NCBI GenBank assembly: GCA_030539495.1
Contig: JAUNRX010000021.1
Span: 1-36,493, forward strand
Reading direction: 5' to 3'
DNA: 36,493 nt
DNA from: a bacterium
Lineage (GTDB): Bacteria > Bacillota > Clostridia > Lachnospirales > Lachnospiraceae
The position numbers were made by a program, and so were the translations under genes. Under the pieces are notes generated by a model that ran no database searches, had not been told where the DNA came from, and was given only the letters and a program-made list of their open reading frames with translations. This document shows, in pieces, positions 6,335-36,177 of this stretch. The first letter of the stretch is position 1, and every line of letters begins with the position of its first letter.

Positions 6335-6820
6335 TTATTCGCAATGCTGATATGCGATTCGTTCTGAGCCATCGGCTAGCTTGATTTCTCCACAATATGC
6401 AAAGCCATTTTTCTCTAATGTCTTTTGCATTGCAATATTATTTTTATGAGTGTCAATCTTTACGTTTGGATATTGCTCATATGCCCAGTTTAAGCAGAAG
6501 GATGCCACGCCAAGTCCTTTCTGGTCAACTGCCACACGGTGTACAACCGCATATTCCTTCTCATTTTTCCAAGCACCGTTATAAATCTGACCGTAAGATG
6601 TATCATTTTCTACTGCAAAATAAAAGGTTCCAACGATCTTGTCCTTATGGAGGCATACATAACTGTTTCCTGCTTCCACATCGGCAGTAATTAATGATAA
6701 GGCTGGGTAATTGTCTCCCCATTGCGTTTCATTTCCAGAGGCTTTCATAAATGCTCTGGCACGACTATAGATTTCCATTAACATGGGTATTTCTTCGATT
6801 GTTGTCTTTCTTATAAGCAT
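6335..6820 (-). CDS. GNAT family N-acetyltransferase
   Basis: A 161-residue acetyltransferase of the GNAT fold. The opening MLIRKTTIEEIPMLMEIYSRAR is strand 1/helix 1, VGTFYFAVEN is strand 4, and VVHRVAVDQKGLGVASFCLNWA is the acetyl-CoA-binding motif (a Q-x-x-G-x-G variant, here QKGLGV). The C-terminal LEKNGFAYCGEI is the usual last motif. The substrate is unknown. The start codon lies just past a 15-bp-stem inverted repeat whose right arm contains the ribosome-binding site GAGGG, so translation may be controlled by RNA folding. Confidence 0.88.
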   Translation of the reverse strand: MLIRKTTIEEIPMLMEIYSRARAFMKASGNETQWGDNYPALSLITADVEAGNSYVCLHKDKIVGTFYFAVENDTSYGQIYNGAWKNEKEYAVVHRVAVDQKGLGVASFCLNWAYEQYPNVKIDTHKNNIAMQKTLEKNGFAYCGEIKLADGSERIAYQHCE

Positions 6821-6826
6821 AATTAT

Positions 6827-6871
6827 CCCTCGTTTACTATATTGTAATGCAATCAGTATACTAAACGAGGG
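6827..6871 (-). promoter_or_regulatory. Inverted repeat sequestering the GNAT ribosome-binding site
   Basis: CCCTCGTTTA at 6827-6836 and TAAACGAGGG at 6862-6871 are perfect complements, and pairing continues inward for four more bases after one mismatch. In RNA from the minus strand, the GAGGG ribosome-binding site of the GNAT gene sits in the 3' arm, seven bases before ATG. It could act as a translational switch, a DNA operator, or a T-poor terminator of the gene at 6897-7100. Confidence 0.5.
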
Positions 6872-6896
6872 ACATTATTTCTAGAGGGTATTGGAA

Positions 6897-7100
6897 TTAT
6901 TCTAATTTTCGGTCCATCCAGACAAGACTGACCGAGGTTAGCACCGATAAAATGCAAAATAGGACTAAAAGTTTATTGCTTATACTACAGTTTACAAAGT
7001 TCATCGTTGGATTTAATTGATCCAGATACCAGAAGATTAGAAACATGCAAGATAACACGATTGTTAAATGAGGAATTACTCGAATTATTTTTCTTATCAT
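6897..7100 (-). CDS. Small two-span membrane protein
   Basis: A 67-residue hydrophobic protein of unknown function. Residues about 9-27 and 43-61 are membrane spans, separated by a short loop with one cysteine (VNCSISN); both ends are basic. AAGGAG lies at good spacing before ATG 7100. It lies between the glycosidase gene and the GNAT gene, all in the same direction. Confidence 0.6.
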   Translation of the reverse strand: MIRKIIRVIPHLTIVLSCMFLIFWYLDQLNPTMNFVNCSISNKLLVLFCILSVLTSVSLVWMDRKLE

Positions 7101-7148
7101 TGAAAAGACTCCTTTTTCGCTTAAATTTAGTACATAATTAGCAAAACA

Positions 7149-8264
7149 TTACGAAGCAACATAGACGATATCGCTGACTTCTCTGCCACCACTGGACGGC
7201 TGGTTAATATAGGAGCCATTATAGATCATTGCAGAGCTGTTGCCTCCATCTAGATTATAGGCTGTCTTACAGCCTTCTAATGACATAAACTGCGCTAATT
7301 CGGTTAAGGAACATCCTCTGGAGTAGCCTTCCTTTCGACCATCCACGACAACCATTACATAATGTCCTGCCTCAACATAGCCAATTGCAGTTCTAGGGTT
7401 ATTACTGTTTAAATAAGAGGTTGTTTGAAAAGAGCTTGCTACTGCGCCGTTTCCATCCAATAAGGAAGGGCCAAAGTTCCAAGCCTGCCATGCGCCTGAT
7501 GCAATTACCGCATCTCCATCAAATTCATTTCCTGCGTAAGTCTTCATTGTACCGTCCTGGAATAATACACAGATATCCGCATCATTTACGTTGGAACGGT
7601 ATAGGACGCCATTTCGGATGACAACGCCTTCTTCACTATTTCCGTAAAAATCACCGTTAATTGCAAGCAATGCATTATTTTCCTGTGCCATCGTCTCTAC
7701 CGTAGTCTTAATGTTCTTACCATACGTATTCTCTGCAAATGCAGACTTAATAGAGGATACATTGGTAACATAAATATCTGCTACATAATAGGTAATCTTG
7801 TCAGATCCACTTCCCACTTCTTTCTTCGTAATCGTTAGATTCGTCGTATCGGAGGTAATCGATTGAAGCTTTGTGGCTGTAATATCAGAAGTCGAAAGGG
7901 TCCCTGTTGCTTCTGAATCCGAAGCTATTTCACTTGTTCCCGTATTTCCCATGCCCTTCTTTCCACCTTTCATGGAATGACTGGTCTTATTAGAGGAGGC
8001 ACTAGAGCTGCCCTCGGATGTTGTGGCTCCACTTGGTGTGGGTGAGGTAGTTTCGGTAGGCAGGGAAAACGTTGCAGAATCCTTTTCGTTGCTGACTACC
8101 GTTGTTCCTTCCAGAGAATAGGTTTGAGGTTTTAAATAGTCAAAATATAGGAATATTCCCATACTCGCAGCTAACATGCCCACGTCAATTAGACACATTT
8201 TTATTATATTCATACGTTTTCGCTTGGGCATTTTCTCTTGATCATGGTCAATTTCTTTCTTCAT
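7149..8264 (-). CDS. Membrane-anchored phosphodiester glycosidase (NAGPA domain)
   Basis: A 371-residue protein with an N-terminal signal anchor (about residues 20-40), a Ser/Thr-rich linker (about 70-130) and a C-terminal NAGPA/DUF2233 domain outside the cell. The domain is marked by AINGDFYG, DGRKEGYSRGCSLTELAQFM and the diagnostic NLDGGNSSAMIYNG. Family members cleave sugar-1-phosphodiesters or act on exopolysaccharides. ATG 8264 is chosen because AGGAGG lies 8 bases upstream; a GTG one codon earlier is also possible. It directly follows the GT2-GtrA gene (3 bp between stop and ATG), so a joint role in cell-surface glycan work is inferred. Confidence 0.85.
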   Translation of the reverse strand: MKKEIDHDQEKMPKRKRMNIIKMCLIDVGMLAASMGIFLYFDYLKPQTYSLEGTTVVSNEKDSATFSLPTETTSPTPSGATTSEGSSSASSNKTSHSMKGGKKGMGNTGTSEIASDSEATGTLSTSDITATKLQSITSDTTNLTITKKEVGSGSDKITYYVADIYVTNVSSIKSAFAENTYGKNIKTTVETMAQENNALLAINGDFYGNSEEGVVIRNGVLYRSNVNDADICVLFQDGTMKTYAGNEFDGDAVIASGAWQAWNFGPSLLDGNGAVASSFQTTSYLNSNNPRTAIGYVEAGHYVMVVVDGRKEGYSRGCSLTELAQFMSLEGCKTAYNLDGGNSSAMIYNGSYINQPSSGGREVSDIVYVAS

Positions 8265-22482: not shown

Positions 22483-23466
22483 CTAATTTGAGGAGGAATT
22501 CGCTGCAGCCGCACTGGCAGCAACTGCCGCACACATAGCGGCTTCTTGTGCTACAATCATGGAGATTGTACCATTTACCACTGCTGTCTGCATCGTCTCT
22601 TGCTTATAATATTCTTTTTGTGCAATCATGCCGGCATACATAAAACGTTGTTTTCTAGTGATACCGCTAAAGAAACCAAATCCTTTTTGCTTTGACAACC
22701 ATTCATCGTTTTCAATCATTTTCCCTACAATTTCATTTAACTCTGCCCCGGACAGAGCAAGTATGCCAAGCGTCGGAAGTTCATATCCGGTACCATATGG
22801 ATATCCTAATTTCTTAAGCAGATCAAAGAGTTCTATTGTTTGGCTGCATTTACGTTCTGCCGAACCATCACAAAGAGCAAGTACGTGGCTCAATGACTGA
22901 ACGGCATTGGAGGAAAAGAACTTTCCTTTTAAAATTTTATAACAATCTTCTACATCTCGCATTAGCACGTCGTCCGATTTTTCTGATACAGCCATTAACG
23001 CGCAGAATGCACTATCTTCTCCAGAGGTTAACCATGGGTGTTCTGCCTTCATGGCATCGTAGAGTTTTCTAGTTCTTAAGGAAATGCGCTCATAATCCTC
23101 CGGCTCAGCCATCTCGGCAATGGACATAGCTGCTAATGGAAGGTAAGTAGAGCTCCAAAAGTTTTTCTTTAATAATTGATAAACAGCTAAGCCCTTTTCC
23201 AGCATCTGCTCCGGATCATCACTGGCTGCCATCATAGTCGCAATTGGAGTACGCGCGGTACTTCTAAATTCTGAAAAAGCTCCTACTTTCTGCTTTAATA
23301 AGTCTCTGCATTTTTTTAATGTTTCTTCTTCTGCAATTTGGCCCTTTGCTGTGAAAATACTTGCACAGGCTAAATGAATTGCCCCACCATCCCAGGCAAA
23401 TACATTTTTTATACACTCTCTATTCCGAAGCAGGTTTTGTAAATGTAGTAGTGTTTCGTCATTCAT
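22483..23466 (-). CDS. DUF4003 family protein
   Basis: A 327-residue soluble, helical protein resembling the DUF4003 family of Firmicutes, function unknown. Recognisable features are FAWDGGAIHLACASIF near the N-terminus, FSEFRSTARTPIATMMAASD, PEQMLEKGLAVYQLL, then CALMAVSE, and GYPYGTGYELPTLGILAL. The C-terminus is alanine-rich (AAVAASAAAANSSSN). ATG 23466 was chosen because AAAAAGGAG lies nine bases upstream; an ATG seven codons earlier (23487) has a weaker site and remains possible. It is converged on by the Crp-like gene. Confidence 0.82.
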   Translation of the reverse strand: MNDETLLHLQNLLRNRECIKNVFAWDGGAIHLACASIFTAKGQIAEEETLKKCRDLLKQKVGAFSEFRSTARTPIATMMAASDDPEQMLEKGLAVYQLLKKNFWSSTYLPLAAMSIAEMAEPEDYERISLRTRKLYDAMKAEHPWLTSGEDSAFCALMAVSEKSDDVLMRDVEDCYKILKGKFFSSNAVQSLSHVLALCDGSAERKCSQTIELFDLLKKLGYPYGTGYELPTLGILALSGAELNEIVGKMIENDEWLSKQKGFGFFSGITRKQRFMYAGMIAQKEYYKQETMQTAVVNGTISMIVAQEAAMCAAVAASAAAANSSSN

Positions 23467-23548
23467 ACTGTTTGTCTCCTTTTTCATAATGAATCCCTAT
23501 TTCCTCAATTATATTTAATTCTCCTTAGGATGCCAAGAGAATTTATAA

Positions 23549-23589: not shown

Positions 23590-23674
23590 GAACAACGAGT
23601 CAAAGTCATGTATACATGACCTTGGCGACTGTCGCGATAACGAGAGAAACTCGCAGAGCGTGTTTCTTCTCGTT
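23590..23674 (-). repeat. 85-bp structured element, copy in 3' UTR of the anti-sigma-like gene
   Basis: A full copy matching 5455-5539 at the same length. On the minus strand it starts AACGAGAAGAAAC, 11 bases after the stop codon. Hairpin 1 pairs this with GTTTCTCTCGTT (one bulge), hairpin 2 is GCGAC-a-GTCGC, and hairpin 3 is the 12-bp stem CAAGGTCATGTA with TACATGACTTTG. The end CTCGTT complements the start AACGAG, so an alternative closed structure is possible. Confidence 0.85.
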
Positions 23675-23685
23675 ACTCTATTTAA

Positions 23686-24774
23686 TTAGCCTGCGTAAGG
23701 AAGTCCAGCAAATACTTCCCATCCGATCACGGCTTTTCCATCTATAACGAAATTTTCTAAGTCTACTTCTAAATAGCCAGTCTCCCCACTTTCTGCTTGA
23801 AGATAGAGCCATTTACCATCAATAACGTTCAGCGTTTTCGCCTTATCTCCAACTTTTAATTGGGTTGCATAGCCGCCATTGCGATCCATAGATTTATAAA
23901 GCTTGACATCTTTAATTGTCTTTACAGTATATTCAAACTTTATTTTCTCGTCAAAAAGAGTGGTTTCTTCTAAACAGTAGTTTCCTGTAATCTTGGAATC
24001 ACTATGGTTATTCTCAACCATCTGAACCGTAGTTTCTTTCCATGTGCCAAGAATTCCCCCTGGTTGATTGATTTTGAAACTTCCGTCGTCATTTACCTTA
24101 ATGTTATCAACTTCATCACGGAACGTTCCAACCTTTACAAGTTTCTTATTTTCGTAATTATATACGTCTGTTAAGTAATCATCGCTAAAGTATTGGTTCG
24201 TAAACAGCAGTTGTACAGAGTCTGCTTCTTTTGTCAGCGCTGCTGCACGTAGCTTTAAGCCCTCTTCACGATCAACACTTCCCTTGATTGTCTGATCCCC
24301 TAACGTAATTTCAAAATCAACCATACTCGTTCCCGTAGAACTATTTTTAAGTACGATTTCTTCTTTTTCACCATCAAGATCCAAGTCGATGTAGTTCTTT
24401 CCTTCCTTTAACTTATAGAACGTACGATCCGTAACGTTTGTTATAGATGGTTGTGGAGTCTCTGTAATCGTAGCGGCTTGATTTGTTTGGCTTGATTGGT
24501 CAGAGCCACCACGAAGTGCAAGTGCTCCGGCTGCAAGTCCAGCTGTAACAACAAGTGCTGCTGCTGTTCCTTCCATAATCTTTAATAGGTTCCTTTTCTT
24601 ATTAATTAACTGTGTATTCATTCGAATTTCCTCTTTTACCGTTTCGTCCTTTTTGTCTGCTTGATCTGAAGGCTGTTTTTGTACTAATTCCCTCATTAAT
24701 AACTCTTCTGCTTTTTTTGATGTTTCTGCTGGTACTTCTATCTTATCTAACATTTCCATTAATTTGCGTTCCAT
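23686..24774 (-). CDS. Putative anti-sigma factor with SH3-like ectodomain
   Basis: A 362-residue single-pass membrane protein. Residues 1-61 are charged and cytoplasmic (MERKLMEMLDKIEVPAETSK), about 64-86 form the membrane span, then a TxP-rich linker, a calcium-loop-like YIDLDLDGEKEEIV (about 128-141) and a C-terminal bacterial SH3-like segment (VGDKAKTLNVIDGKWLYLQA). Its start overlaps the sigma gene by 16 bases, and the pairing and topology fit an anti-sigma factor that senses the envelope. An internal ATG at 24621 (residue 52) has its own GAGG eight bases upstream and aligns exactly with the start of the paralogue at 26348. The function is inferred from context. Confidence 0.75.
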   Translation of the reverse strand: MERKLMEMLDKIEVPAETSKKAEELLMRELVQKQPSDQADKKDETVKEEIRMNTQLINKKRNLLKIMEGTAAALVVTAGLAAGALALRGGSDQSSQTNQAATITETPQPSITNVTDRTFYKLKEGKNYIDLDLDGEKEEIVLKNSSTGTSMVDFEITLGDQTIKGSVDREEGLKLRAAALTKEADSVQLLFTNQYFSDDYLTDVYNYENKKLVKVGTFRDEVDNIKVNDDGSFKINQPGGILGTWKETTVQMVENNHSDSKITGNYCLEETTLFDEKIKFEYTVKTIKDVKLYKSMDRNGGYATQLKVGDKAKTLNVIDGKWLYLQAESGETGYLEVDLENFVIDGKAVIGWEVFAGLPYAG

Positions 24775-25256
24775 GTGTAGTCCTCCTTCTCTAATATTGT
24801 CTTTAGTTGTTTTTTCGCTCGGAATAAATAGGTTCGTATCGTATTCTGATTTTTACCCATGAGTTCTGCAACTTCCACTAGGGAGTAGCCTTGATAAAAA
24901 TGCAGGTAAATAACTAATTTATAGTTTGGTGGCAGTTGGCGTAAATATGTAAACAGATCCTTTTCGTCTGAAGTCATTGCTGGTAAATCTTCCTCTAATG
25001 CCGTTGTCCTCTGGAACCATGCAGACTTTAATAGACTTTTGCAGCAATTTACAGTTACTCTTATAAACCATGCCTTTTCATGCTCTGCGCTTTCAAAGAC
25101 AGGCGTATGTTTACAGTATCGAAGAAATACCTCCTGAAAAATGTCATCGGCATCGGATTTGTTCTTACAGTATACCATTGCCAATCGGTATACATGATTT
25201 TTGTTACGCTCCACTAATTGGTGGATGCTTTCTGGATTATGTTCGAAAGAACTCAC
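24759..25256 (-). CDS. ECF-type RNA polymerase sigma factor
   Basis: A 165-residue sigma70-family factor of ECF size. Region 2 is visible in VYRLAMVYCKNKSDADDIFQ and EVFLRY, with EKAWFIRVTVNCCKSLLKS at its end; region 4 in LRQLPPNYKLVIYLHFYQGY and SLVEVAELMGKNQNTIRTYL. It has no region 1 or 3. The start is GTG 25256, seven bases after AGGAGG. It overlaps the downstream membrane protein gene, the presumed anti-sigma factor. The unusual element at 25298-25333 upstream is repeated before the paralogue gene, indicating autoregulation and a small regulon. Confidence 0.93.
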   Translation of the reverse strand: MSSFEHNPESIHQLVERNKNHVYRLAMVYCKNKSDADDIFQEVFLRYCKHTPVFESAEHEKAWFIRVTVNCCKSLLKSAWFQRTTALEEDLPAMTSDEKDLFTYLRQLPPNYKLVIYLHFYQGYSLVEVAELMGKNQNTIRTYLFRAKKQLKTILEKEDYTWNAN

Positions 25257-25297
25257 TTTTTGTCCTCCTAAGTTGTTGTAGTATTTTCTGTTCTGTT

Positions 25298-25333
25298 ATA
25301 TATACTTTTGAAATCGTTGTTTCGTTTCAAAAA
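25298..25333 (-). promoter_or_regulatory. Conserved TTTTGAAA-N11-TTTCAAAA promoter element, copy 1
   Basis: On the minus strand TTTTGAAACGAAAC begins the element, and TTTCAAAAGTATATAT ends it, about 42 bp before the sigma gene start. The GAAACG part sits where an ECF -35 would lie relative to a GTATATAT -10-like box, while TTTTGAAA/TTTCAAAA also makes an 8-bp perfect inverted pair. Further TTTCAAAAA motifs follow at 25335-25366. Confidence 0.75.
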
Positions 25334-25427
25334 CTTTCAAAAAGTTTTATAATTTTTCAAAAATAGTTAGTTTACCTTATTTTAAGTATGCTGTCTAGTG
25401 ATTTTTTCATCATAGTATTGGAGTTAT

Positions 25428-26348
25428 CTAACCTGCGTATGGAAGTCCGTCAAATACTTCCCATCCTCTAACAGGTGTTCCATTGATGATAAGATCTTCT
25501 AAGTTTAGTTCTAAGTATCCGTTCTCTCCGCTTTCCGCTTGAAGATAGAGCCATTTACCATCGATAACTTTGATTGTTTTCGCCTTGTCGCCAACTTTTA
25601 ATTCCTTAGCATAGCCACCATTACAATCCATGGATTTGTACACTTTTACATTTTTGATTGCTTTAATGGAGTATTCAAACGGAATTTCTTGATCAAATTG
25701 TGTTATCTCTTCTAAGCAGTAGCTTCCTGTTATCTTGGAGTCAGTATAAGTGTTTTTCACCATATGTACTGTTGAGTCTTTCCATGTACCAAGTATTCCT
25801 CCTGGCTGGTTAATTTGAAAACTTCCGTCATCAGCTATCTTGATCTTGTCTACTTCATCACAGAATGTGCCAACTTTCACTAGTTTCTTATTTTCATAGT
25901 TGTATACATCGGTTAAATAATCATCGCTTAGGTATTGATGGGTAAACATAAGCTGAATGGAATTGGATTCTTTTGTAAGTGCTGCTGCGCGTAATTTTAA
26001 GCCATCTTCACGATCAACGCTTCCCTTGATGATCTGATCACCTAATGTAATTTCAAAATCAACGATGCTTGTCCCTGTGGACTTATTCTTTAATTCAATT
26101 TCTTCCTTTTTGCCATCAAGGTCAAGATCAATGTAGTTCTTTCCTTCTTTTAAACTGTAGATACTTCGATCTGCTGTAAATGATGCCGCTGGAGTTGCAA
26201 TAATACTTGTTGCCTGAGCGAATTTGTTTGTTGTACCACGAAGAGCCAATACTCCGGTTCCAATGCCTGTAGTTACAAGAAGAGCTACTGCACTGCCTTT
26301 CATTATTTTTAGTAAGTTTCCTTTTTTCAATACGAATTGTGAATTCAT
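25428..26348 (-). CDS. Paralogue of the anti-sigma ectodomain without cytoplasmic domain
   Basis: A 306-residue protein almost collinear with residues 52-362 of the protein at 23686-24774, with most residues identical and the same C-terminal GWEVF-x-GLPYAG. It begins MNSQFVLKKGNLLKIM, so only a short basic N-terminus precedes the membrane span, and the 51-residue putative sigma-binding part is missing. It could act as a decoy or competitor in ligand binding, a second sensor, or an envelope protein of the regulon. ATG 26348 follows AGGAGG by nine bases. Two copies of the conserved promoter element lie upstream. There is a 171-bp gap to the sigma gene. Confidence 0.8.
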   Translation of the reverse strand: MNSQFVLKKGNLLKIMKGSAVALLVTTGIGTGVLALRGTTNKFAQATSIIATPAASFTADRSIYSLKEGKNYIDLDLDGKKEEIELKNKSTGTSIVDFEITLGDQIIKGSVDREDGLKLRAAALTKESNSIQLMFTHQYLSDDYLTDVYNYENKKLVKVGTFCDEVDKIKIADDGSFQINQPGGILGTWKDSTVHMVKNTYTDSKITGSYCLEEITQFDQEIPFEYSIKAIKNVKVYKSMDCNGGYAKELKVGDKAKTIKVIDGKWLYLQAESGENGYLELNLEDLIINGTPVRGWEVFDGLPYAG

Positions 26349-26391
26349 TTTTTATGTCCTCCTAATTTTTCGCTTTCATTACTTTCCTGTC

Positions 26392-26427
26392 ATATATACT
26401 TTTGAAATTCATGTTTCGTTTCAAAAA
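26392..26427 (-). promoter_or_regulatory. Conserved promoter element, copy 2
   Basis: TTTTGAAA, an 11-bp spacer beginning CGAAAC, then TTTCAAAAGTATATAT on the minus strand, 44 bp before the paralogue's start codon. It is the same arrangement as copy 1 with the same spacer length. Confidence 0.75.
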
Positions 26428-26488
26428 ATTCATATTTTTTTAAAAAGTACTTTGCGTTTTGTTTTCGCCGGTTTTTTACCGTTCTGCT

Positions 26489-26524
26489 ATATATACTTTT
26501 GAAAGATCGCATTCGTTTCAAAAA
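26489..26524 (-). promoter_or_regulatory. Conserved promoter element, copy 3
   Basis: A third copy, 97 bp upstream of copy 2, with TTTTGAAA, 11 bp beginning CGAA, and TTTCAAAAGTATATAT. It has no separate gene behind it and acts presumably as a second start for the paralogue gene. The remaining gene-free sequence 26525-26660 is A/T-rich with no feature seen. Confidence 0.7.
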
Positions 26525-26760: not shown

Positions 26761-29322
26761 TTACACTAAGGTTAAGCTGGCAGCGTCCTTACATAACATT
26801 TGGATCTTATTTAACATACGGATTGCACATACCTGTAGTTCTGCACGCGTCAAGTGATATGGATGTGCCTCGTCTTCTAATGCTTTCATAATGTCATTAA
26901 GGTCGGATGCTGCACCTGGCATGATTAAATCATTTCCGGCTTTTACACATCCTGCTGCCGAAGCTTCTTGATGTACGCTTGCTGGATTTTTCATAAGCGT
27001 AGTTGTAACATACCAATCAGTCATAACGATTCCTTGATATCCCCATTCATCACGAAGTACATAGGTCTGTACATCTTTACTTGTACAAGAATGCTCACCA
27101 TTGATTAAATTATAGGAAGTCATAAGGGCATGTGGCTGTGCTTCTTTGACACAAATCTCAAATCCTCTAAGATAGATTTCACGTAATGCACGTTCGCTTA
27201 AAATGCTGTTGGATGTATAACGATTAGTCTCCTGGTTGTTACATGCAAAATGTTTAATCGTCGTACCACAGCCCTTATGCTGTTGCACACCTTTTGTCAT
27301 TGCAGCTGCAATCAGGCCACTTACCAATGGATCTTCGGAATAATACTCGAAGTTACGTCCGCAAAGTGGAGAACGATGAATATTAAGAGCAGGAGCCAGC
27401 CAAAGATGCACGCCGAACTGCTCCATTTCTGCACCCACTATGTCACCACATGTATTTACCACCTCTACATTAAAGGACTGTGCCAAATCAGTTCCAATTG
27501 GAATTGCTACACAATACTGATAGTACTCTGGAGCAGAGCATTCTTCTTCGGAAGGTTTTTCTTGCTGGAATTTTGCCATTTGCTCTGGATCAAACAATTC
27601 CATCATATCTTCGCTCACTGGGGATGACGTTGATCTCACTTCTCCATTTACAACCTTATATGCTGGGCTAATTCGAATTCCTGCAGGACCATCTGCCATC
27701 ACTAAGCTTTCTAAATCATAAGAAGGATCCAAGCGGTTTGTCGTTTCTCCAGCGGCTCCGGCAACTCCAAATGCTGCGGCTCCGATCACGCTGTCTTTTC
27801 TAACTTCATCGGAAAATGCACCAATACAAAGATATGCTAGTTCTTTATTGGATAGAGAGGCTGCAAACTGTTGAACCGTTTTATCTCCTGATTTCACTTG
27901 ATCCCAAGTGATTTTGTCATTATTATGATACTCCTGTGCTTCTGAAGAATAGTTGATTTCCTCTGTAATAATCTTTGTTGCATCGACTGAGAGGATCTTT
28001 GCTTGTGCTCGCTGTTGTTCTTCTTCCTTATAGAAGTTTGTAGTAACCGCAGGCTTTTGTTCCTTTACCTTGTCTCCAACACAGATATTCTTTCGCTTTC
28101 TTACGACTGTAGTTTGTTCTATCGAAATTCCTGCACAAACTTTCGTATGTCTGGAACTATTTCCAACATGAATATAGTAAATACCCTTTTCTAATAGATA
28201 GGAAGCGGTTTCTTCGTCATAGGCTGCCATATCGGTCGTCTTAAAACGAACGGTAAGAGTACAGCTTTCTTTTGGCTGTAATTCTTTTGTCTTTGCAAAT
28301 CCAGCAAGCTCCTGATAAGGGCGGTCTAACTTCTCAGAAGGAGCAGAATAATATACTTGGACTACTTCTTTTCCAGGTGTTTTACCAATATTCGTGACCT
28401 GTACTTGGAGTGTAATCTCATTTTCATCTGCTGTCATTCCTTTTGCTACGACTTCAAATTCAGTATAGCCAAGTCCATAGCCAAATGGATAACTAACCCC
28501 TTTTCCTACTGTGTCAAAATAACGATATCCGACATAAATGCCTTCTTTATAGTAGGTATCGTTCATATCGCCAAATCCCTCTGTGGATGGATAGTCTTCA
28601 ATATTTGTCCAAGTCATTGTCAGTTTTCCTGATGGATAAGATGTTCCAAGCAGAAGGTCTGCAAGCACGTCTCCGGTTGGTGTTCCCAATTGGCCAAGAA
28701 GTAGGATATTTTTCACTTCACTTACTGGTGATAACTCTACCATACCACCGACATTTAAAACTAACATAAATCTTTCATATTTTTCATTTAATGCTAAGAT
28801 ATCGCGTTTTTCTGCCTCTGTTAATTCCATGTCTCCTGATGTAGGCGTACGATCTGATCCTTCTCCTGAGTTTCTTGCCAATACATAGATTGCGACCTCT
28901 CCTTCTCCATCTAATGGAAGTTCATACTCTGGTTCTTGCATTACTCGTCCCATAGCAAGGATCATTGCAGGAATTCCAGCTTGTTTTGCTTCTTTCTTTA
29001 TGCCATTATGGAATGCTTGTCTTGCAGTATCAAACACAAGGTCATATTGATCTAGCCATGAAGTTGTTGTAATCTCAAATCTGGCATTTTTAAGACCTTC
29101 CTCAATCGTTGAAAAATGTCGTACGTTTACATCTCCGGAACCCGTACCACCCTTGATTGTCTTTCTTGCACCATTTCCATAGAGGGCAATCTTACTTGCA
29201 TTATGAAGTGGAAATGTTCCATCCTTCTTTAAAAGCAACGTACATTCTGCTGCTAGGCGGCGTACCTGTTCCCTATGTTCTACTTCAAATGGCTGCACTG
29301 CATTCTCATTAATTCTAATCAT
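26761..29322 (-). CDS. GH3 glycosidase with permuted domain order
   Basis: An 853-residue glycoside hydrolase family 3 enzyme with inverted domain order. The alpha/beta sandwich domain comes first (about residues 15-260; GNGARKTIKGGTGSGDVN), then a fibronectin-III-like domain (about 310-390; GKEVVQVYYSAP), and the TIM barrel last (about 500-850). The nucleophile is Asp769 in IVMTDWYV, and KHFACNNQETNR is the usual substrate-binding motif. Such permuted enzymes are known in rumen clostridia and act as beta-glucosidases or related exoglycosidases. There is no signal peptide, so it acts on imported oligosaccharides. ATG 29322 follows AAAGGAGAG; a longer reading has no ribosome-binding site. It is probably regulated by the AraC-type gene 120 bp upstream. 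Confidence 0.93.
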   Translation of the reverse strand: MIRINENAVQPFEVEHREQVRRLAAECTLLLKKDGTFPLHNASKIALYGNGARKTIKGGTGSGDVNVRHFSTIEEGLKNARFEITTTSWLDQYDLVFDTARQAFHNGIKKEAKQAGIPAMILAMGRVMQEPEYELPLDGEGEVAIYVLARNSGEGSDRTPTSGDMELTEAEKRDILALNEKYERFMLVLNVGGMVELSPVSEVKNILLLGQLGTPTGDVLADLLLGTSYPSGKLTMTWTNIEDYPSTEGFGDMNDTYYKEGIYVGYRYFDTVGKGVSYPFGYGLGYTEFEVVAKGMTADENEITLQVQVTNIGKTPGKEVVQVYYSAPSEKLDRPYQELAGFAKTKELQPKESCTLTVRFKTTDMAAYDEETASYLLEKGIYYIHVGNSSRHTKVCAGISIEQTTVVRKRKNICVGDKVKEQKPAVTTNFYKEEEQQRAQAKILSVDATKIITEEINYSSEAQEYHNNDKITWDQVKSGDKTVQQFAASLSNKELAYLCIGAFSDEVRKDSVIGAAAFGVAGAAGETTNRLDPSYDLESLVMADGPAGIRISPAYKVVNGEVRSTSSPVSEDMMELFDPEQMAKFQQEKPSEEECSAPEYYQYCVAIPIGTDLAQSFNVEVVNTCGDIVGAEMEQFGVHLWLAPALNIHRSPLCGRNFEYYSEDPLVSGLIAAAMTKGVQQHKGCGTTIKHFACNNQETNRYTSNSILSERALREIYLRGFEICVKEAQPHALMTSYNLINGEHSCTSKDVQTYVLRDEWGYQGIVMTDWYVTTTLMKNPASVHQEASAAGCVKAGNDLIMPGAASDLNDIMKALEDEAHPYHLTRAELQVCAIRMLNKIQMLCKDAASLTLV

Positions 29323-29442
29323 CTTTTTCTCTCCTTTACCCTTATATCTATGTAAACTTTTTAGCTTTACCAAGTTGATAAGATTACTATAAGGCTTCTT
29401 TCCTATTCTGTATTTCATTATCTTAATATTTTTTATCACTTT

Positions 29443-32100: not shown

Positions 32101-35100
32101 CTATTTCACTTTAACACTCTTAACTGTGCTATAGCTTCCGTATACTTTCTTACCATTTATTGTTTTGTAAGCTCTTACTCTAACATAAATAGTCTTCTTC
32201 TTGCTTAATTTAGTAATTGTTTTTGATGTTTTCGTTGTATATCCTGCAACTTTATATTTTCCTTTTTTAGAAGTCTTATAGGAAATCTGATATCCGCTTG
32301 CTCCAGTAACTTTCTTGTAGCTTACTGTTGCCGTTCTTGATTTCTTAGAGGAAACTTTAATGCTGCCTACTTTCTTAGGAACAATGTTAAAGTATACTTT
32401 TTTTGTTCCAGTATACTTTCCTTTTCCTTTGATCGTAATAGTTGCTTTACCTGTTTTAACATTGTTTTTATAAGAAACTGTGTAATCTGTTCCTTTTTTC
32501 AGTGCCTTTTTGTTGTACTTTAATGTTACTGCTGGTTTAATTGCTTTACCAGTGTATGTTTTATTACTAATGCTTGATACTTTTACTTTAGTAATTGCTA
32601 CTTTCGTAACTGGTTTCATCGTTGGTTTTACGGTTGGATTTGGAGTTGCAGGTTTTTGTGTTGGTTTTGTTGTTGGTTTAGCTGTTGGTGCTTGTGTAGC
32701 TGGTGTTTCTGTTGGAGTTACCACTGGTTTTGAACCAATTTCTGTTCCAATAACAATTACAGTTGGATTAGCATTTGCAGTAAATCTTGCACCAGTATCA
32801 GCTGCAGCTTTATCTGTTAATTTTAAGAAGTCACCAAGGTTGATCGTTCCATCTTGATTAAACGTTGGAGTTACTGTTTCTGTACTTGCAAACCAAGAAT
32901 CATTTACTGAAACGTCAGCTGCATTTACACCATTTAAGTAATTTGTTGCATCTACAATTGCATCTTGTTCTTTTACTTCGATATAATCTGTTTTTGCTGG
33001 TTTATAAGAAAGGAAACCAGTTACTTCATACTCTGTTTTTGCTGCATTTGTATATAAAGCAAGATTCTCTGCTTGGTTTGCAAATGAAGTTACATTATAT
33101 ACTTTTGGATCAGGACCCGAGTTACTAGTAACCCCTTTTGCAAGGTTGTTAAAGGAAACAGAGTTCTTTAAGATATGGGCACCAGGCATGCTTTCACCAC
33201 CTAGTTTAAATCCATTACCTTCACCAATCTGAGTATTACCGGAATCTTCAGTTAATTTACCATTGCTGTATGCAACACAGGAATCGATTGTTACAGCACC
33301 GATAGAACCGGATGTAGATTTTGCATATAGATCCCAGCCATCATCGATATTGTGGTGAGAAATACAGTAACGGAATACGTTGTTATCACCTACAGTAATC
33401 TTTGCTGCAAAACCGTCAGCATCATTTGCTAAAGGATCACAGCTGTTATATACTTCAACACTTTGAACTAAGTTGTTGCTAGGCCACATTGCGTAGCTTT
33501 CTTCCGATGAACCATTGATTTGTAAACCTGTATCTGCATTGTCATGGATTAATAATTTCTCAGCGATATTATTATTTCCTTGAATATGCATTGGTTTACC
33601 TTGTTTTGTATTCTTGATTTCAAGATTGTAAATATGCCAGTAGTCAGCTTTTAAGATAATACCGCCTGTCGTAGAGTCAGCAAAATTTAATACTGCTTTT
33701 TCACTTGGATCAGACATTAATGTAATACGTTTTTCAGCAGTGCCGTTAAGTCCTCTTGGAATTTCAATTGCACTTGATAACTTGTATTCTCCACCTAAAA
33801 GGATGATTTCTTGTCCTGGCTGTACGAAAGCTACTGCTGTAGAAATGTCTAATGGGCTTGCCTTTGTTCCTTTTCCATTAGCAGTTCCTTGAGGAGATAC
33901 ATAGATTGCATTTTCTTCTGTACCATATGCTTTTACTGTTACTTCCAAAGTAGAAGTAATTGGATCATAAGAAGATAAATCAGTGTATGCAGGTAAGTCT
34001 TGAGCTTCTTTTACAGCTGGCGTAAATGTTACTTTTAATTTATTTGTTCCCTGTGTTAATGTAACAGGGATTTCTTTTCTTTGTTTTGCAAGAACAGGAA
34101 CATCCTTTACAAGGATTTTACCAGCTTGATCAGCAATTTGAATGTTACCTGCTACATTAGAAACAAATACTGGTTTGTAATCCGTACTTGATGTTGTCTT
34201 TGTTGTATCAGATTTGATTGTAGGTTCAATCTTTGTAATTTCTCTTTCTGGTAAAACATAAGGATCTTCTTCTGGTTTTACAGTAGTAAAGGTGTAATCA
34301 GTTACAGTTGCGGTAATCTTACGTCCTACTACAAAACCAACATAGAGTTTGTCAGCATCCTGAGTTAAAAGAGTTTCGTCATAACTAATTAAATTATCAT
34401 ATTTTTCACCATTTTGGTCTTCAAATTGTGCAAGGTAACCACCATTACATCTTTGTAAGGTAAAGGTATATTCTTCACCATCAAAGAAACGTGGAGCATT
34501 TGGAGTTCCAGCTGCATTTGCTTTGTCTAAGTTGAAATTAGGATCAAAGTTCTTAGTTGCATCCATCACACGTTTTCCAGCTTGGGAATCTGTTGGTGCT
34601 TCTGTGTATCCTGTAATCGTACGAAGTCCAGGAATACCATATAAGTATTCTTTATTTACAGGATCAACAGTGAAACGAGTTACCATGGAAGCGACAGAGT
34701 TCATGTATCTTGCATCATTTACAGTGTCTAACGTATCTACTGCCATAATACCGAAGCCAGACTGATTGTCTTTACTAGCGGAATTATCTACTCTAAACGT
34801 TGCAGTTAATGTAAAGTTTTCTTCCTTAGGATCGATTTCTGTATAGTAGTAACTGAATTGATCTTCACTTTCTGCAATTTTACCTGAAGTGTTGTTCATT
34901 GTGATTGTTCCATCGGCATTTACTTTGATTTCACTTCCTTTGGAACCAGAACCTACAAGGCCGGATAACCATCGTTCTGCTTGTTTTTGTATTGTTTTGT
35001 TTATTGTAGCAGTCTTTGTATCTGCCCCTCTCACTGCAGTAACTGTAATTTCATATTCCTTTAATGCAGTTAAGTCTGTCGTGATTACGTATTCAGTATC

Positions 35101-36177
35101 TTTTAACCCTTTTACAACGTCTACTACGTTATCTGTACCTACTTCTTTGTAAGAAATGTTATATGTATCTGCTTCGGACACTTTTTCCCAAGCTAATTGT
35201 AATGATGAATTCTTTCCTGTTAAAGCTTTTGTAATCTCAAAAGAATCTAATGGTCTTACATAATCATTTACTGCTAATTCGGAAGAACTCTTAACCTCTT
35301 CTTCTCCTGCACGGTAAGCATTTACTACAACTTTAAAGTTACCACTCTTGGTTGGTTTTAATGCTATGGAACCTTCATTTCCTTCCGTTCTATATGTAGC
35401 TTTTGTATCTACTTTCCCGTCTGCATCAATAAGCTGTGCTACGACACGATCCGCTCCGCTATTGGAGATATCCATTTTCCAGTTTACTAGTATTTGACTT
35501 GTACTTACTGGATTTACTTTGGCAGATAGTAATTGAGGTGCAGTAACGCTTGACCATTCAGGTCTTTCAGGTTCTGCTATTCCTTCTTTCTCCTCAGCTA
35601 CGTCTAAGTAGAATACATTTACACCGCCACTTGGGGATGCAAAATAATAATCGCCTGCTTCTGTAATCTGGAATGTAATTGGAGTAATTACAGTAGTCGT
35701 ATTAATTGCTACAGGGAATGTGGTTACTACTTCGCCACCTGCTTTGTATAATGCAAAGTTACGTTCTCCTCCACCACTTAATGCATAGAGTGTAACAGTT
35801 GCTGCGCCTTCTGTTTTAAAATGAATGGAGCGTTCCGTTTCTGAACCTGTTCCATTTAATTTAATTGCATTTACAAAGTCCCAGTTTGTCTGTCCCTCTT
35901 TTTCCATGGCAGCAATATCTACTTTTTTTGAAGAAGTTGCATTGATCGTATATCCATCAAATACGGTATTTGCAGCAATTGATTTCACATTTAATTTGGA
36001 TGGATTTAATATACTATGCATCCATACTTTTTGAGCATCTTGCTGTACTGCCATGTTTAAACCGCTTGCATCAATTGCTGGAGATGCATAGACAAGTCCC
36101 ATCTGAGGCATTCCAGTAGCAATTACTGTTACTGTTGCTACAGAAGCAACAGTTCTTTTGAAAAGGTCTTTTCTCAT
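32101..36177 (-). CDS. Secreted multidomain PL9 pectate lyase
   Basis: A 1358-residue secreted enzyme that cleaves polygalacturonate by beta-elimination. Order: signal peptide (1-31, ending VYASPA); a beta-sandwich likely carbohydrate-binding domain (about 60-200); two fibronectin-III-like domains (about 212-395); another beta-sandwich module (about 397-640); a linker domain; then the PL9 parallel beta-helix (about 755-1110), recognised by AIYVSPQGTANGKGTKASPL, the catalytic-lysine segment DADGFAAKITVG (Lys about 926) and SHHNIDDGWDLY. A Pro/Thr linker (about 1146-1197) leads to a lysine-rich C-terminal tail of two small beta domains, which may bind the cell wall. AGGAGGAG precedes the ATG. 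A cre-like palindrome lies upstream. Confidence 0.93.
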   Translation of the reverse strand: MRKDLFKRTVASVATVTVIATGMPQMGLVYASPAIDASGLNMAVQQDAQKVWMHSILNPSKLNVKSIAANTVFDGYTINATSSKKVDIAAMEKEGQTNWDFVNAIKLNGTGSETERSIHFKTEGAATVTLYALSGGGERNFALYKAGGEVVTTFPVAINTTTVITPITFQITEAGDYYFASPSGGVNVFYLDVAEEKEGIAEPERPEWSSVTAPQLLSAKVNPVSTSQILVNWKMDISNSGADRVVAQLIDADGKVDTKATYRTEGNEGSIALKPTKSGNFKVVVNAYRAGEEEVKSSSELAVNDYVRPLDSFEITKALTGKNSSLQLAWEKVSEADTYNISYKEVGTDNVVDVVKGLKDTEYVITTDLTALKEYEITVTAVRGADTKTATINKTIQKQAERWLSGLVGSGSKGSEIKVNADGTITMNNTSGKIAESEDQFSYYYTEIDPKEENFTLTATFRVDNSASKDNQSGFGIMAVDTLDTVNDARYMNSVASMVTRFTVDPVNKEYLYGIPGLRTITGYTEAPTDSQAGKRVMDATKNFDPNFNLDKANAAGTPNAPRFFDGEEYTFTLQRCNGGYLAQFEDQNGEKYDNLISYDETLLTQDADKLYVGFVVGRKITATVTDYTFTTVKPEEDPYVLPEREITKIEPTIKSDTTKTTSSTDYKPVFVSNVAGNIQIADQAGKILVKDVPVLAKQRKEIPVTLTQGTNKLKVTFTPAVKEAQDLPAYTDLSSYDPITSTLEVTVKAYGTEENAIYVSPQGTANGKGTKASPLDISTAVAFVQPGQEIILLGGEYKLSSAIEIPRGLNGTAEKRITLMSDPSEKAVLNFADSTTGGIILKADYWHIYNLEIKNTKQGKPMHIQGNNNIAEKLLIHDNADTGLQINGSSEESYAMWPSNNLVQSVEVYNSCDPLANDADGFAAKITVGDNNVFRYCISHHNIDDGWDLYAKSTSGSIGAVTIDSCVAYSNGKLTEDSGNTQIGEGNGFKLGGESMPGAHILKNSVSFNNLAKGVTSNSGPDPKVYNVTSFANQAENLALYTNAAKTEYEVTGFLSYKPAKTDYIEVKEQDAIVDATNYLNGVNAADVSVNDSWFASTETVTPTFNQDGTINLGDFLKLTDKAAADTGARFTANANPTVIVIGTEIGSKPVVTPTETPATQAPTAKPTTKPTQKPATPNPTVKPTMKPVTKVAITKVKVSSISNKTYTGKAIKPAVTLKYNKKALKKGTDYTVSYKNNVKTGKATITIKGKGKYTGTKKVYFNIVPKKVGSIKVSSKKSRTATVSYKKVTGASGYQISYKTSKKGKYKVAGYTTKTSKTITKLSKKKTIYVRVRAYKTINGKKVYGSYSTVKSVKVK

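Follow-up and report, generated by a model that had tools for sequence, protein, structure and literature searches.

Closest described systems

RsiV of Bacillus subtilis is both a receptor for lysozyme and an inhibitor of it, and its overproduction upon induction lets the cell bind lysozyme and is protective, according to PMC5014341; once lysozyme is bound, RsiV is cleaved by signal peptidase, according to PMC4183432. Here, we analyzed a locus of a related kind in a Lachnospiraceae bacterium (assembly GCA_030539495.1, contig JAUNRX010000021.1; the 36,493-nt stretch is referred to as the window). The region 23,686-26,524 encodes, on the minus strand, an extracytoplasmic function (ECF) sigma factor (sigma), an overlapping single-pass membrane protein that is likely its anti-sigma factor (long), and, upstream of both, a near-copy of the latter lacking the first 51 residues (short). 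We tentatively read this locus, at a little below an even chance, as a self-contained RsiV-like sigma/anti-sigma circuit whose output is the ectodomain of its own sensor, the neutralizing half now being a separate sigma-induced protein.

As described in PMC4183432 and PMC5014341, the sigmaV-RsiV system resembles this reading in having an autoregulated ECF sigma-anti-sigma operon, a single-pass anti-sigma factor, and an ectodomain that acts as receptor and inhibitor of the inducer. It differs in that long has another ectodomain, with no DUF4163/PdaC or DUF3298 domain found in a profile search at E up to 1 (which returned only a subthreshold SH3_16 match), and in that here the ectodomain protein without an anti-sigma domain (ASD) is encoded separately, under two promoters of its own, with no other target recognized by the patterns used. 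A second likeness is to SigI-RsgI of Clostridium thermocellum, whose regulon includes proteins carrying the module of the anti-sigma ectodomain: GH10 is present in RsgI6, and GH10 xylanase genes are among the sigmaI6 targets (PMC4711584, PMC6056542, as far as the available text goes). Sigma-I factors are distinct from ECF sigmas, and in the same portions of those papers their targets are mainly cellulosomal, with no near-copy of a whole ectodomain. Long had no match to the RsgI N-terminal model at E up to 1, and its partner sigma matches ECF models. The third likeness is to the BlaR1/M56 receptors, since the ectodomain module described below also terminates an M56 peptidase protein at another locus (L013); the protein at L132 looks M56-like by eye. 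The sensor domain of BlaR1 resembles the beta-lactamase effector, and signaling in that family uses an M56 protease and a repressor, with no sigma factor. XAC2610 (4qtq) and CarG (4o7j) are also among the closest known systems. Searches of open-licence PMC for an anti-sigma factor with a decoy and an ectodomain, or for an ECF sigma factor with a decoy receptor, found no paper; one for an anti-sigma factor with an internal start codon found a single paper, on a Geobacter genome.

An ECF sigma factor, its probable anti-sigma factor, and an ectodomain copy

Reading along the minus strand, the order is two promoters (P1 and P2), short, a third promoter (P3), sigma, long, and a terminator-like stem. 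The sigma gene (24759..25256) begins with GTG and encodes 165 residues that match Sigma70_r2 (residues 14-80, 4.3e-13) and Sigma70_r4_2 (residues 103-151, 2.1e-14); no region 3 model was listed in the profile search, and the score against the sigma70-ECF model was 85.9 bits (cut-off 42.9). By these profile matches, sigma is a plain ECF sigma factor.

The long gene (23686..24774; 362 aa) overlaps sigma by 16 nt (24759-24774), and its product has a cytoplasmic part (residues 1-65), one transmembrane (TM) segment at about residues 69-87, and an ectodomain. Only one hydrophobic stretch was detected: 19-residue windows with a mean hydropathy of at least 1.3 start at positions 63-73 only (best 1.86 at 69). 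The short gene (25428..26348; 306 aa) encodes a signal/TM segment and an ectodomain without an ASD, and it is preceded by a Shine-Dalgarno (SD) sequence, TTAGGAGG, with an energy of -10.2; its hydrophobic windows start at positions 12-21 only (best 1.75 at 18). Residues 1-306 of short align with residues 52-362 of long at 72% identity (E 2.7e-167), so that the first residue of short corresponds to Met52 of long, whose codon (24619..24621) follows the weak SD AAGAGG (-6.0). An earlier note made from the DNA letters had described this overlap, the single-pass topology, and an upstream near-duplicate missing exactly the first 51 residues; our measurements bear out each of these points.

That note had also considered that long might be an anti-sigma factor. 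Long is likely the anti-sigma factor of sigma because of its position beside the sigma gene, the overlap, and the single TM segment; the same gene arrangement is found in a relative of the same genus (G002). In an hhalign comparison, the N-terminus of long matched one set of 11 family anti-sigma N-termini with 79% probability over residues 5-20 (16 residues). A second set of 12 N-termini gave about 1%, over residues 62-75. The comparison covered 23 of 29 anti-sigma proteins from outside the window, six having been omitted by hand and at least three trimmed to a later start. A PDB sequence search with the N-terminus gave nothing below 0.26. Zinc anti-sigma factors carry an N-terminal HxxxCxxC motif, which is absent from long, as its residues 1-65 contain neither His nor Cys. 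RsiV has an AXA signal-peptidase site directly following its TM segment, and candidate sites of this type are ALA at 84-86 in long and AQA at 44-46 in short; the positions aligned with ALA of long read VLA in short, GFA in the third copy described below, and IFA in G002, with no counterpart in G003, another relative.

The recognized promoters lead back to the same genes

All three promoters in the locus match TTTGAAACG-N17-GTATATA perfectly: P1 (26490..26522) and P2 (26393..26425), the latter 44 nt from the ATG of short, and P3 (25299..25331), which serves the sigma-long operon. In the window's genome (G000), this pattern has only four perfect matches, namely the two before short, the one before sigma, and one on another contig (C48). 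Allowing up to two mismatches gave 13 matches, of which these four were perfect, nine had two mismatches, and none had a single one, against 8 for a reversed-pattern control, and TGAAAC-N18-GTATA found the identical four sites (control, 5). The promoter type that the earlier note saw before both sigma and short is thus shared without a mismatch and above chance.

By sequence match, a TGAAAC-type promoter precedes sigma in G002 as well and, in diverged form, in G003. With up to one mismatch, TTGAAACG-N17-GTATATA matched in G002 the promoter of its own sigma gene alone (control, 1), and it was absent from G001 and from G003, whose own sigma promoter has diverged. A looser pattern gave five matches in G002 (control, 3), four of them inside open reading frames (ORFs) of 313-978 codons; 26 nt downstream of one of these four begins a 112-codon antisense frame. 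The recognized targets of sigma would therefore be its own operon and the ectodomain copies without an ASD. Because the pattern was derived from these copies themselves, weaker targets could escape it, and the genomes are incomplete (G000: 3.96 Mb, 257 contigs, 91% complete).

The spacers of all four G000 promoters, three of them in the window, carry TTTCAAAA, which forms an inverted repeat with TTTTGAAA; the corresponding G002 spacer carries TTTTAAAA. This repeat is possibly the site of a second regulator, or possibly reflects shared descent.

A third copy and coding constraint

The fourth promoter belongs to a third paralog in the same genome (C48:10311-11354), which has kept the perfect promoter and lost nearly all of sigma. 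Its 5' end (L002:1360-1630) consists of the sigma promoter, the ribosome-binding site, and the first 19 sigma codons, fused out of frame to about codon 11 of a long gene. Translation from the sigma start would run for 40 codons before a stop; the first strong start after that is the ATG equivalent to Met52, which AAGGAGG precedes. Two of the three G000 copies therefore lack sigma and appear placed to yield the form without an ASD. An old loss of the cytoplasmic part is disfavored by the C48 sequence upstream of the Met52 equivalent, where 41 codons have retained 71% identity to long. Either the deletion may have occurred recently, or translation may begin farther upstream at a weak TTG (SD -4.5).

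From Met52 on, dN/dS (the ratio of nonsynonymous to synonymous divergence) of short was 0.08 with long, 0.11 with C48, and 0.08 with G002 (dS 1.3-2.0), and 0.21 with G003 at a dS of 2.6; among the G000 copies and G002 as a whole, it was 0.08-0.13 (dS 1.0-2.2). These are old protein-coding copies, although dN/dS gives no date for the loss of the cytoplasmic part. A duplication introduced by assembly was rejected on the synonymous divergence of 1.0-1.9 between the G000 copies. A FastTree nucleotide tree placed the three G000 copies together (0.97) and joined long with C48 (0.99); a protein tree left their branching unresolved.

The ectodomain module and its occurrence in relatives

The ectodomain module of long (23689..24447) comprises a DLDLDG beta domain of the DxDxDG type and a C-terminal SH3b-like domain. 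The test for an SH3b fold was positive, and in a PDB sequence search the 60 best of 95 matches all bore names of SH3 domain proteins (best, 0.00039). The predicted structure has a mean pLDDT of 63, with residues 1-110 mostly below 50, and its N-terminal helices are unreliable. The module occurs in 57 of 392 family genomes searched. Thirty module loci were fetched, one being the short gene itself; among the other 29, all from other genomes (five of them in the seed alignment), 20 module ORFs were lipoprotein-like and no locus had a sigma-like ORF. At one locus (L015), the module stands behind RsiV-like PdaC-DUF3298 domains in a single protein. A second ECF sigma/anti-sigma pair in the window's genome (L082, G000:C109; sigma at locus positions 6781-7290, anti-sigma ORF from 7277) has a 465-aa anti-sigma protein with the same module at its end.

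The sigma-long family was found in three of four genus genomes, including the window's own, and at full length in no other genus when 397 and then 395 genomes, for the most part the same ones, were searched; in the set of 397, five others gave partial, module-only matches. A scan of viral contigs (600 pattern matches) and one of plasmids yielded no relative, phage records lying outside these scans, and a scan of genome contigs found one, apparently identical with G002:C51. The syntenic locus of G002 (L006) has the order GH3-sigma-long-Crp and no short gene. A separate short gene beside sigma occurs in one of the three genomes with the family, the window's, and no second anti-sigma-like ORF was found at any of 40 other sigma loci. 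Three of these loci are from G000, and the remaining 37, chosen as best-ranked sigma matches, come from 36 further genomes of the family. That survey extended about 7 kb in each direction, or as far as the contig reached, with ORFs of at least 60 aa and E 1e-3, and recovered the window as a positive control. The earlier note had made its idea of a decoy depend on short accompanying sigma in homologs, which these counts support only in part. It had mentioned neither the C48 paralog, nor the strong SD at the Met52 equivalents of the third copy and a relative (see below), nor the lack of short in the syntenic relative.

The G003 ortholog of sigma (L005:1202-1456) is missing 81 internal codons in frame, a gap that runs from within region 2, most of which is gone, through the linker into the beginning of region 4, beside an intact long gene; this deletion could be real or an artifact of the draft assembly.

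Other features lie around the locus. A terminator-like stem-loop (23601..23624, minus strand) stands 3' of long, where the scan gave two sites in the region against 1.9 expected from shuffles. No such site was listed on the minus strand between short and sigma, by a scan that yields no more sites than shuffles, and short may therefore be cotranscribed with sigma and long. The GH3 glycoside hydrolase at 26761-29439 has a reversed domain order, with the C-terminal and Fn3-like domains ahead of the N-terminal domain. A DUF4003 gene (22483-23487), missing from the same place in L006, separates long from the Crp-like regulator, and the 1358-aa product of 32101-36177 contains an fn3 domain and weakly matches a beta-helix model.

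A proposed circuit

The circuit that we favor is built on the gene anatomy, the shared promoter, the lack of other perfect promoter copies, the coding constraint, and the distribution of the module. For its operation, we infer sigma binding, a ligand, neutralization, and proteolytic release. Long would display a cell-wall-type ectodomain and, on the cytoplasmic side, use its first ~50 residues to hold sigma. When a ligand, probably a wall-directed agent, meets this ectodomain, long would be inactivated and sigma freed to transcribe both its own operon and short, the latter from two tandem promoters; a further copy, positioned to yield a product without an ASD, lies behind the same promoter type on C48. 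Short would bind the ligand and be unable to hold sigma, so that its overproduction would neutralize the ligand while sigma stays on, until, with the ligand gone, long recaptures sigma. The outer half of the sensor may thus itself be the defense.

Possible internal initiation near Met52

The exact start of short at Met52 would be explained by an internal start in the genus. In one form of this idea, the long gene of the genus produces, from one and the same mRNA, an isoform without an ASD by means of an internal start; in the window species, a promoter-plus-isoform unit was duplicated to become short, and the internal site decayed. We consider this a real though rather unlikely possibility, and one that complements the circuit and does not replace it. 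In-frame ATGs ahead of the TM segment have strong SDs in G002 at Met52 (-12.2), in C48 at its equivalent (-11.4), and in G003 at codon 60 (-10.7); where the three intact long genes themselves begin, the energies are -11.6 to -11.7 (-11.6 for G002). As a background, 26 ORFs of the window and 5 of L006 contain 275 in-frame internal ATGs, one of which is at or below -10.7. An ATG with an SD of -10 or lower lies between codon 21 and the TM segment in two of the three intact long genes, compared with 3 of 40 other anti-sigma genes (hypergeometric P 0.03).

The protein is rich in Lys and Glu at this place, and codon shuffles that keep the protein fixed weaken the signal: P was 0.05 for G002, 0.10 for C48, 0.08 for G003 codon 60, and 0.38 for the long gene of the window. 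G003 codon 60 is off by 12 alignment columns, downstream of Met52, and the ATG of G003 closest to the aligned place (codon 46) has an SD of -8.5 and a shuffle P of 0.60. Fisher's combination gave 0.058 over the three intact genes (taking 0.12, for any ATG in G003 codons 30-65) and 0.024 over four genes (taking 0.08, for G003 codon 60), from sites chosen after inspection in few, related sequences. Internal initiation at the Met52 equivalent is thus suggestive in relatives, which may make the short form in this way without a short gene. For the window's own long, it was not supported, the SD being only -6.0.

A broader form holds that the anti-sigma gene of the genus is bifunctional, its two starts giving a sigma-holding sensor and an effector or decoy without an ASD; the short product would have been freed twice in the window species, and the whole regulon would be its own sensor. 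Taken as a whole, we regard this as unlikely.

Other explanations for short

The earlier note had proposed a decoy. As a pure decoy or adaptation loop, short and long would compete for the signal or an activating protease, the result being a higher threshold and shutdown of the circuit, with the real output lying elsewhere. Short does have the same ectodomain and promoter type without the sigma-holding part, and two promoters would mean strong negative feedback. Yet these patterns revealed no further credible target promoter in either G000 or G002, leaving nothing visible to damp, and the module is lipoprotein-like in 20 of the 29 ORFs elsewhere. A pure decoy is distinctly unlikely in our estimate. 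Because sigma has no other visible output, short is better read as an effector; in the circuit that we favor, the neutralizer also acts as a decoy, as a by-product of ligand neutralization, and the two roles predict different knockouts.

Short and C48 could instead be leftovers of a duplicated sigma-anti-sigma cassette that suffered deletions and has no distinct role. Neither has its own sigma between promoter and ectodomain, C48 is an out-of-frame sigma-long fusion, and the layout was unseen at the 40 other loci. Still, both ectodomain frames are intact and constrained, and in both copies the promoter is still perfect and the Met52-equivalent ATG still follows a strong SD, which makes this account highly improbable. 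Least probable of all, short would be a membrane partner that forms mixed oligomers with long and alters its proteolysis without binding a ligand alone: short does resemble long in its TM segment and juxtamembrane region, but the module relatives elsewhere are mostly lipoprotein-like and have no sigma-like ORF in their loci.

Implications

ECF regulons are usually seen as a sensor with a list of different outputs. Here, the recognized output is the sensor's own outer half, separated from sigma, an arrangement that by analogy would represent the double role of RsiV split into two genes. If the circuit is true, it would separate the receptor from the neutralizer, so that the cell could mop up the signal without losing the alarm. 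The locus would also provide a natural test of decoy versus effector roles, and it points to an uncharacterized surface module.

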